Source of the DNA: a virus
Virus record (IMG/VR): IMGVR_UViG_3300031857_001515
Location: 1-22,419 of that record
Strand: one strand, 5' to 3'
DNA length: 22,419 bases
Both the position numbers and the translations under genes were made by a program. This document shows, one piece after another, positions 1 through 17,327 of the stretch (position 1 is the first letter of the stretch; each line of letters opens with the position of its first letter). The notes under the pieces were generated by a model, which did no database searches, had not been told where the DNA came from, and saw nothing but the letters and a program-made list of their open reading frames with translations.

Positions 1-584
1 TCCAATTCTTTTATTTGCTTTTCAATACCATATCTTTTCTGGTATGCAATACCTCTTTCATCTGGTGTATTGAACTTATCTTCTTTTATTAATTTATTTA
101 ATTCTTTTAATTCTTCTTCAAGTTCAATTTTGTTATTTAATACATTATCTGGTACATTGTCTAATACTTTATCTAATAATAAAGGTTGTATAATACTGCC
201 AACTTCTCCGACTAATGACGTGTCGGTTTTCCGACTAACACGGTTCGGTTTTCCGACCAGTAGTGTCGGTTTTCCGACTAATGGATTCGGTTTATCGACC
301 AGTGAAACCATCCTCAACGGAACGATAGTTCTTTTCTCTTTTCCATTAATCATCTGTCTATCACATTTGATATAACCTAAACTTTCCAACTTTGTTACTT
401 TTTCACTTGCGGTCGTTCTACTAATACCCATCATATCTCCCAACATATTATTTGATATAAAACATTCTTTTTTATTATCATAAAAGGAATAGATAATTGC
501 AAGTGTCATCTTATCTCCAAAATTTAATTCTTTATTTCTCATCAAAGTATGTGGTATCTTTGTGAATTGTTCTTTATTTGCCAT
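1..584 (-). CDS. Replication initiator-like helix-turn-helix protein, C-terminus cut by window edge
   Basis: The ATG is at 584 and 194 codons are readable before the left edge, with no stop. Residues 1-75 look like the HTH_36-type domain common in phage and plasmid replication proteins: it opens with MANKEQFTKIPHTLM, and a recognition-helix region follows at about 44-72 (SNNMLGDMMGISRTTASEKV, then LESLGYI). Residues 97-127 are repetitive (VDKP, VGKP, VGKP, then SRKTD, then LVGE), produced by DNA repeats that look like iterons. Residues 140-152 carry a second short repeat (LDKVLDNVPDNVLNN), and the readable end (153-194) is charged and helical. The likely role is binding its own internal repeats to start replication; this is inference from family resemblance and the repeats. 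A plain transcriptional regulator is the alternative. The gene diverges from the rightward genes and has a structured leader at 600-681. Confidence 0.7.
   Translation of the reverse strand, partial: MANKEQFTKIPHTLMRNKELNFGDKMTLAIIYSFYDNKKECFISNNMLGDMMGISRTTASEKVTKLESLGYIKCDRQMINGKEKRTIVPLRMVSLVDKPNPLVGKPTLLVGKPNRVSRKTDTSLVGEVGSIIQPLLLDKVLDNVPDNVLNNKIELEEELKELNKLIKEDKFNTPDERGIAYQKRYGIEKQIKEL
141..176. repeat. AT-rich 12-bp tandem repeats next to the iterons (candidate DNA-unwinding element)
   Basis: Three consecutive 12-mers are visible on the plus strand: TACATTATCTGG, TACATTGTCTAA and TACTTTATCTAA, flanked by further AT-rich sequence (about 130-185). They encode the LDKVLDNVPDNV segment of the initiator-like protein. 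AT-rich repeats beside iterons are typical of origins opened by an initiator; the role here is inferred from position. Confidence 0.45.
204..300. repeat. Iteron-like array with internal dyads (candidate replication origin)
   Basis: On the minus strand GTCGG or GTCGA starts at 299, 278, 257, 235 and 212, a spacing of 21, 21, 22 and 23 bp, about two helical turns. The central units contain GTCGGAAAACCGAC or close variants, which is a dyad (TCGG and CCGA around AAAA). The unit at 299 is degenerate (TCGATAAACCGA) and the unit at 212 is a half unit. Upstream bases alternate between TTA and CTG. The array lies inside the initiator-like gene, as lambda ori lies inside gene O. The origin role is inferred. 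Confidence 0.7.
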
Positions 585-14233: not shown

Positions 14234-15184
14234 TTATGGTATTGTACCACTATCAATTGTTATTGCTATTTGTTGTATTGATGGTGCGTCCATCACATAT
14301 GTATAAGTGGTAGCACTTCCTGACGATGATGGACAAGAAGATGATGAACCATTTCCATTCATTACACACGCAATACTTGTTCCAAATTCAATACTATCAA
14401 ATTGTGTTAATCCTGTTATAGTATATAAATTTGTACAACTAATAGGTAATTGTGCACCTGTATAACCAGGTACGTTTATTGAACCACCGCCATTAATACT
14501 ATAAAATAATGTTAAAGTTGATGGTGTTCCATCTACATCTTGACCATAAATTTCTAAACTAAGACCGCTTGGTTCAGGTGTTGGTGTAGGAGTAGGTGTC
14601 GGTGTACTTGTAGGTGTAGGTGTAGGTTCACCTGGTGTAGGTGTAGGAGTACTCGTTGGAGTAGGAGTTGGTGTTGGTGTTCCCGTAGGTGTTGGAGTAG
14701 GTGTTGGTGTAGGTGCAACTAAATTTAAATTTGCACAAACAGGTAAATAACATAACTCACCAATAAATCTAAATTCAAAATAATACATACCATCTGTAAA
14801 ACCTGTAAGTCCTACATTTGCGGGTGTAACAGTAAAACTAAAATTATTTGTTGAACTTGTTGCTGTTGTTCCTGTTGTTGATATGTTATGTACCGTCCTC
14901 CAAGGTTTAAAATAACTTTGAGTTGGTGCCAACATATGAATAGAAACAAGAGATAAATCCCCATTAGATTGTAAAAATCTTTTTGAATTATTTAGACTCC
15001 AAGATGTTGTACCTGAAAAGGTAATACTACTTGAACTTACTGTTGTTGCAGTAAAAGTTATAACACTTCCACTTACACAATCATCATATATATCGTGTAT
15101 AATTTCTGTATCATATTCTTTCCTTACTTTGTTTGGATAAACAAAATCTGAATTAACTAATTGTCTTATATATTTTCTACTCAT
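14234..15184 (-). CDS. Virion appendage protein with proline-threonine linker
   Basis: The 316 residues have three parts. Residues 1-156 are an N-terminal beta-rich domain (DCVSGSVITFTATTVSSSSI, a YYFEFRF strand, two cysteines near 145-150). Residues about 157-206 are an almost pure PT repeat linker with occasional G, S and E. Residues about 207-316 form a second beta-rich domain (LSLEIYGQDVDGTPSTLTLF) with serine-rich loops and cysteines. PT linkers are extended, stiff spacers, so the two domains probably work at a distance, for instance an attached base and an exposed binding domain. It lies among tail genes between fibre-like and tape measure genes, which suggests a tail-associated adhesin or fibre. 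The binding target cannot be deduced. Confidence 0.65.
   Translation of the reverse strand: MSRKYIRQLVNSDFVYPNKVRKEYDTEIIHDIYDDCVSGSVITFTATTVSSSSITFSGTTSWSLNNSKRFLQSNGDLSLVSIHMLAPTQSYFKPWRTVHNISTTGTTATSSTNNFSFTVTPANVGLTGFTDGMYYFEFRFIGELCYLPVCANLNLVAPTPTPTPTPTGTPTPTPTPTSTPTPTPGEPTPTPTSTPTPTPTPTPEPSGLSLEIYGQDVDGTPSTLTLFYSINGGGSINVPGYTGAQLPISCTNLYTITGLTQFDSIEFGTSIACVMNGNGSSSSCPSSSGSATTYTYVMDAPSIQQIAITIDSGTIP
14567..14716 (-). repeat. Low-complexity PT-coding repeat
   Basis: The sequence repeats short CCTACACCWACW-type units in leftward sense, encoding alternating Pro and Thr. It is divided by GT, ST and GEP interruptions. Such repeats are prone to replication slippage, so linker length may vary between relatives. 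Confidence 0.8.
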
Positions 15185-15731: not shown

Positions 15732-15751
15732 ATTTATAAATATTTATAAAT
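15732..15751. repeat. 20-bp perfect AT palindrome
   Basis: ATTTATAAATATTTATAAAT reads the same on both strands and lies directly before the fibre-like gene, overlapping the stop of the propeller gene. It contains the AATATTTATA motif that also precedes the genes starting at 17327 and 11124. Confidence 0.7.
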
Positions 15752-17327
15752 CTATTATTAAATTTAATTCGTTTTCTGTTGTTATTGATTCTGATAATTC
15801 TGTCATTAATTCAATTTCTATATTATCACACATAAGTAAATTACCATCTCTATCACATTCAAATATTTTTCTATATGTGTTTCCGTTAACAGTAACAAAT
15901 CCTCCACCCACTATTATATTACCATTATCTCTTACTGCAATACTTTCTTGTGTAGCAGAGAATGTTTGGTCAAATAGAACGGGATTGAATGTTGTATCTA
16001 ATGAACCGTCTGAATTTAATCTATATAAACCATCTATATCAGGGGATGTACTTGTAACTAACATTAAAATTTTATTATCAGGTAGAACATAAAAATCTGT
16101 AACAACCTCACCCACAAAATATGTATCTGTGGTAAATGTTGTATCTAATGAACCATTTGAATTTAATCTGGCTAAACCATAAGATGTACTTCCACTTATG
16201 GGAAAATCAAATATTCCACCTATCATTATTTTACCATCTGATAAAATTTCTGTAGTTAAAACATTTGATGCAGTACCAATTGTACCAGCAAATGGTGAAG
16301 TGAAAGTACCATCAATTGAACCGTCTGAATTTAGTCTTACAATTTTATCTGCTGATGCAACATTATTGTAATTTAAAAAATCCCCACTAATTAACATTTT
16401 ACCATCAGAATATAAACTAATATCGGTTATAATTTGTGAACTACCTGCACTATTTGTATTACCACTAAAACTTGTATCTATACTACCGTTGGAATTTAAT
16501 CTACATATATTTCTAATCGATGTTCCATTATAAGAGGTAAAATTACCACCAGCTAATATCTTACCATCTGGTTGTATTTCTAAATCATATATCTGTGGAA
16601 TTGCACCACCAAAACCTGTACCTGTAACAAATGTATTATCTATGGAATAATTGTTATTAATTCTAACAATACCATTTTTTGTTACACCTGAATATGTTGT
16701 AAATGAACCACCAAGTAATACCTTCCCATCACTTTGTTGTTCAATTGTAGAAGCAAATGCGTTTAAAGTTATAACATTAAGAGGAAACGTTGGGTCAATA
16801 GAACCATTATTATTTAACACAGTAAAACAACCTGTCACAATACCTTGGTATTGTGCGAAGTTTCCCATACAATATATCTTATTGTTAATGAGTTTCACTT
16901 CTCTTACCGCATAAGAACCGAATGGTGACAAACCCTGATTAAATCCTGTTTGAATATTTAAACAATTTTGTACAGTACTATCAACTTTATATTCAAATCC
17001 ATATGCGTCATTTCTTGTTGTTGCAGTAAATGTTATAGAGACACCAGTTATTCCTGAGGTTGATGATATGTTTGTTGTTTTAATTCCTCTATCACCATTT
17101 TCATCGTCTGTTGTATAGTCAGTTCTTGATATTGATAATGTTTTATCATAATTGTCATCAAAAAGACTTACTGTAACTACATCCCCAATATTAATATTTG
17201 AGGAATATAAATTAGACATACCATAATATGCTCTATATGTTTCATTTCCGTTCACAACAACAGTATAATATGGACCACCTAAATCAGAGAAAAACTCGTC
17301 AAATGTAACTACTAAAGAACCTCTCAT
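15744..17327 (-). CDS. Seven-repeat delta-60 beta-propeller virion protein
   Basis: Residues 1-115 are an N-terminal beta-rich region (GSLVVTFDEFFSDLGGPYYT). Residues about 128-500 contain seven repeats of roughly 50 residues of the delta-60 type. The best have the form DGKILAGGNFTSYNG, then a short link, then CRLNSNGSIDTSF. Repeat ends are visible near 181, 233, 287, 342, 398, 447 and 495. Seven blades would close a propeller. The last 30 residues are acidic. Such repeats occur in bacterial surface and phage proteins; here the gene lies between two tail-tip genes and a fibre-like gene, so it is probably an exposed tail component binding the host surface. The repeat identity is strong; the binding role is inferred. 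Confidence 0.75.
   Translation of the reverse strand: MRGSLVVTFDEFFSDLGGPYYTVVVNGNETYRAYYGMSNLYSSNINIGDVVTVSLFDDNYDKTLSISRTDYTTDDENGDRGIKTTNISSTSGITGVSITFTATTRNDAYGFEYKVDSTVQNCLNIQTGFNQGLSPFGSYAVREVKLINNKIYCMGNFAQYQGIVTGCFTVLNNNGSIDPTFPLNVITLNAFASTIEQQSDGKVLLGGSFTTYSGVTKNGIVRINNNYSIDNTFVTGTGFGGAIPQIYDLEIQPDGKILAGGNFTSYNGTSIRNICRLNSNGSIDTSFSGNTNSAGSSQIITDISLYSDGKMLISGDFLNYNNVASADKIVRLNSDGSIDGTFTSPFAGTIGTASNVLTTEILSDGKIMIGGIFDFPISGSTSYGLARLNSNGSLDTTFTTDTYFVGEVVTDFYVLPDNKILMLVTSTSPDIDGLYRLNSDGSLDTTFNPVLFDQTFSATQESIAVRDNGNIIVGGGFVTVNGNTYRKIFECDRDGNLLMCDNIEIELMTELSESITTENELNLIIDL

Follow-up and report, generated by a model that had tools for sequence, protein, structure and literature searches.

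Phage lambda, lactococcal phages and staphylococcal plasmids provide known cases of replication origins that lie inside the gene of their own initiator protein. The lambda ori occupies the central part of the initiator gene and consists of iterons followed by an AT-rich tract (PMC7466680), and we find four iterons in gene O, 20–24 bp apart, at 39034–39118. In the staphylococcal RepA_N plasmid pSK41, the winged helix of Rep binds boxes within its own gene, the linker encoded by the ori can be dispensed with and DnaG is bound by the C-terminal domain, and the pfam13730-containing Rep of the HTH_36 hybrid pPR9 replicates autonomously (PMC5703833). A comparable in-gene layout is found in initiator genes of Lactococcus, Lactobacillus, Enterococcus and Staphylococcus phages. 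For the group of Bacteroidota phages considered here, literature searches returned no experimentally mapped origin, and for in-gene origins in Bacteroidota phages they returned nothing direct. Here, we describe a 22,419-base IMG/VR virus fragment (record IMGVR_UViG_3300031857_001515; the whole stretch analysed is called the window) that appears to carry a phage replication origin embedded in its own initiator gene. We put at about 88% the probability that this is a theta-type origin, bound by the protein it encodes and recruiting the host replisome, a function predicted from the sequence.

The same phage is represented by a longer contig (G001, 33,090 bases), which is 100% identical to the window over the 3,584 bases compared. 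Its ends (L011 1–207 and L012 14884–15090) overlap by 207 bases at 98.6% identity (3 mismatches) and a third contig spans the junction; hence the phage has a genome of approximately 32.9 kb that is circularly closed or permuted. Its terminase most resembles those of Flavobacterium phage 11b and Cellulophaga phage phi10:1 (44–45%), which suggests a Bacteroidota host, probably a Flavobacterium-like one. Among the scanned genes of the ~32.9-kb genome, none was recognised as coding for a helicase, primase or polymerase, so the phage most likely depends on the host replisome for replication. Elsewhere in the genome, L001:4642–5190, upstream of the small terminase gene, encodes a 182-aa protein that weakly matches a sigma factor (phrog_1740, 0.001), a possible late regulator. 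Window positions 14234–15184 encode a predicted tail-region protein containing an extended Thr-Pro repeat (TPTPTPTP...), and 15744–17327 a protein of 527 aa in which five beta-propeller repeats of the DUF5122 type (1.8e-60) are present, perhaps a host-contact protein.

The initiator gene is cut by the window edge, with 194 of 200 codons inside, and the complete copy encodes 200 aa (Table 1). A first-pass annotation of the window had called its product an HTH replication-type protein; Pfam, PHROGs and fold searches agree and support a winged-helix replication initiator. The HTH_36 match reaches 33.2 bits against a cut-off of 25, and the PHROGs matches are to replication initiation proteins or DnaD-like loaders. 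HTH_36 is also the family of the pfam13730 domain of pPR9 Rep. In the AlphaFold model (mean pLDDT 63.5, built from 8 sequences), helices at residues 12–69 and strands at 72–89 form a winged helix, residues 92–143, the linker encoded by the repeat DNA, are of low confidence or disordered, and the C-terminal residues 146–199 form two helices. The linker is probably a disordered spacer, and the helical C-terminus is a candidate contact to the host helicase or primase. In contrast to pSK41 and pPR9, which are plasmids and in which the C-terminal domain contacts DnaG, the window is from a phage in which such a contact is a prediction. The closest solved folds, all weak matches (E ~0.005–0.02), are DnaD-N (2v79) and staphylococcal plasmid RepA (4pql, 4pt7 and 5kbj), which also has its origin inside its own gene.

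Table 1 Features of the initiator gene and the candidate origin, in window coordinates
Feature	Position	Strand	Sequence	Plus-strand letters	Basis
Replication initiator gene	3–584	-			HTH_36 4.6e-8; phrog_270, phrog_428 and phrog_186 ~1e-8; complete copy L001:3001–3603
Winged-helix DNA-binding domain, coding part (residues 12–89)	318–551	-			AlphaFold model m2b986029cbd9; PDB fold matches
Iteron 1, frame 0	286–299	-	GTCGATAAACCGAA	TTCGGTTTATCGAC	Sequence
Iteron 2, perfect dyad, frame 0	265–278	-	GTCGGAAAACCGAC	GTCGGTTTTCCGAC	Sequence
Iteron 3, frame 0	244–257	-	GTCGGAAAACCGAA	TTCGGTTTTCCGAC	Sequence
Iteron 4, perfect dyad, other codon frame (SRKTD, not VGKPT)	222–235	-	GTCGGAAAACCGAC	GTCGGTTTTCCGAC	Sequence
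Degenerate fifth unit, 23 bp from iteron 4	199–212	-	GTCGGAGAAGTTGG		Half-sites direct, not inverted
Conserved block, codons 128–132 (VGSII)	189–203	-	GTTGGCAGTATTATA		Synonymous-site invariance in all homologues
Candidate unwinding element: three direct repeats of 12 bp, AT-rich (TACATTATCTGG, 141–152; TACATTGTCTAA, 153–164; TACTTTATCTAA, 165–176)	141–176	-			Sequence; lag analysis of homologues
Helical C-terminus, coding part (residues 146–194 of 146–199)	3–149	-			Model pLDDT ~80

The initiator gene contains four GTCGG-N4-CCGAC dyads, spaced 21, 21 and 22 bp in gene order, with a further 23 bp to a degenerate fifth unit. The five GTCGG-type units at 21–23 bp and the three AT-rich 12-bp repeats that had been called from the letters are thus borne out, and the interval given for them (130–300) was right, with repeats at 199–299 and 141–176. 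The accompanying statement that most units have an internal dyad is also right: four do, two being perfect 5+5 dyads and two having one to two arm mismatches, and the degenerate fifth has its half-sites in direct order. Searching all 22.4 kb for the dyad with up to two mismatches returned these four sites only, against an expectation of 0.84 over the window; four matches, clustered or not, arose in 1 of 100 shuffles.

Since the repeats are also coding sequence, they could be the by-product of an LVGKP-type protein repeat in the linker. Three of the four units do share one frame, reading V-(G/D)-K-P, and the linker is of low complexity. The fourth reads S-R-K-T-D, as the step of 22 bp moves it into another frame while the DNA stays the same, and the homologues have the same iteron DNA with the same frame shift, except that in L029 the shift comes a unit sooner and the gene lacks one unit. 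Over the 28 dyad copies (7 of the 8 genes), GTCG is kept in 28 and CCGA in 27, and the 4-base centre is variable. Eight of the 28 are read in another codon frame, at least one in every GTCGG-type gene (one per gene, two in L029). The window dyads also need rare codons (GTC, 3% of Val; CCG, 5% of Pro; CGG, ~0% of Arg), and when synonymous codons were resampled by phage usage with the protein fixed, four dyad sites arose in only 1 of 20,000 trials. Taken together, the frame changes, rare codons and resampling strongly support selection on the iterons at the DNA level, and a protein repeat is a very improbable cause. The frame shifts between repeats make this a clean case for separating DNA-level from protein-level selection.

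The layout is retained among relatives of the initiator. Seven IMG/VR homologues (L015, L018/L020, L019, L027/L031, L029, L043/L044 and L045), with 41–65% alignment identity to the window protein, have 21–22-bp repeats at the same place in the gene. The refuting case named with the first-pass annotation, the same protein without DNA repeats, is thus not seen within the family: all eight genes keep them. The GTCGG-type dyad is present in six of the seven (7 of 8 genes counting the window). In L045 the repeats are different: copies of GTAGTTCC are spaced by 21 and 66 bp, and those of ACCACAGG by 21 bp; given that the 21-bp period is kept with another sequence, the layout outlasts the iteron sequence. 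A protein-profile scan of bacterial genomes did not find any relative, and bacterial matches to a three-iteron DNA pattern were rejected because most were repeats, microsatellite-like or dispersed, in open frames unrelated to it. The HTH protein of Bacteroides phage C3_41T2LP, a short relative (94 codons with stop), has no comparable tandem repeats in or near its gene. Initiator-like genes on unrelated G+C-rich viral contigs (L026:6878–8959, L032:1–357 and L025:2197–3582) contain GTCGG-N4-CCGAC dyads at 16–23 bp, and two of them have sub-threshold HTH_36 matches. The GTCGG half-site in these viruses may reflect convergence or shared recognition.

Between the iterons and the AT-rich repeats lies a 15-bp block with the consensus GTTGGC(AG/GC)TATTATA, which is invariant even at synonymous sites and includes GGC, a codon used for 1% of glycines in this phage. 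All 99 synonymous comparisons of its codons (99/99) show identity, versus 65% in the winged-helix part; the homologues compared are related, so the 99 do not count as independent, but within the same genes the difference is plain. Conservation is stricter for the block than for the iterons, given that the block is unchanged in L045 despite the different iterons there. In IMG/VR it was found in initiator genes only of homologues of the window initiator, the other matches being in unrelated contexts. We tentatively consider that it could be a separate origin element, perhaps a host-factor site or the start of strand opening, and it is possibly new.

Beyond the block, the AT-rich 12-bp units form a second periodic element. 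When 16 lags were compared over a fixed interval following the dyads, lag 12 came out best in 7 of 8 homologues, and the 70 bp after the iterons are 71–87% AT. Twelve base pairs equal four codons and the units are in frame, so a four-residue protein repeat may contribute in part. Per-gene synonymous p-values for the period are ~0.001–0.1 for most genes, optimistic values from scan-chosen windows, and the synonymous test only moderately favours DNA-level selection here. Lag 12 also follows the iterons in initiator genes of Lactococcus, Enterococcus, Lactobacillus and Staphylococcus phages, with some cases weak or absent. In LLC-1, iLp1308, FNU4 and R29.1, iteron-like periods of 23–27 bp are seen and the 12-bp AT period is not clear, and hence the 12-bp element is common but not universal.

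The nearest phage counterparts are the lactococcal initiators (D6890, D7138, BK5-T and PLgT-1), whose N-terminal domain is homologous to that of the window protein (32%, E 8e-6) and whose genes likewise contain dyad-bearing repeats followed by 12-bp AT-rich repeats. The BK5-T record annotates a repeat_region inside the replication gene, with the same layout as in the window, D6890 and D7138. They differ in having other iterons (GGGGTATACCGAAG...) and a longer C-terminal domain. The first-pass comparison with lambda stands for the layout and order of parts, given that both genes run from the domain through dyad iterons and an AT-rich side to the C-terminal part. It does not extend to kinship: the Phage_rep_O (PF04492) match is sub-threshold (20.7 bits versus a Pfam gathering score of 28.7), and the nearest folds are those of DnaD-N and RepA. 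Lambda also has another iteron sequence and no 12-bp AT period in O, and the window phage is without a recognisable helicase loader like lambda P. RepA_N (PF06970) gave no match in a Pfam scan at E 0.1, so the likeness to RepA is by fold only. The window gene would be a further case of the known class of in-gene iteron origins (HTH_36, DnaD-like or O-like phage initiators) and would work like lambda O and the plasmid Rep genes, but by sequence it is not a member of Phage_rep_O or RepA_N.

Constraint on the DNA does not by itself tell function, and winged-helix proteins of the MarR and DnaD type bind dyads of this kind. The dyads could therefore be operators for the initiator's own gene or for antisense transcription, used by the initiator or another regulator, with the origin elsewhere. 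We regard this as unlikely, as the sites lie 285–385 bp into the coding region and the promoter has none, the 21–22-bp phasing and AT-rich 12-mers fit origins, and the family matches of the protein are to replication initiators. Less probable still is that the repeats serve packaging (pac) or partition and fall in the initiator gene by chance: small and large terminase genes do lie a few kb downstream, but comparable repeats occur in initiator genes of other phage families with other gene orders, and no partition gene was recognised. The GC skew of the 33-kb contig has no minimum at the initiator gene and is uninformative because nearly all genes lie on one strand, and DnaA boxes in the window (3 versus 5.9 expected) lend no support.

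In sequence, the candidate origin combines dyad iterons about two helical turns apart (21–22 bp) with the block and then the 12-bp AT-rich repeats. The winged helix would bind each dyad, probably as a dimer, and the bound initiators would pack the iterons along a single helix face. The resulting complex would open the AT-rich 12-mers, and the helical C-terminus would bring in the host helicase or primase, given that the genome has no recognisable gene for either of these or for a polymerase.

If the conserved block were a separate element, the origin in phages of this group would be fired by one 200-aa protein with no helicase loader. The combination of dyad iterons and 12-bp AT repeats within an HTH_36 initiator gene is shared by phages of two phyla. 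For Flavobacterium-type hosts, the compact candidate origin and short initiator could underlie a small replicon.
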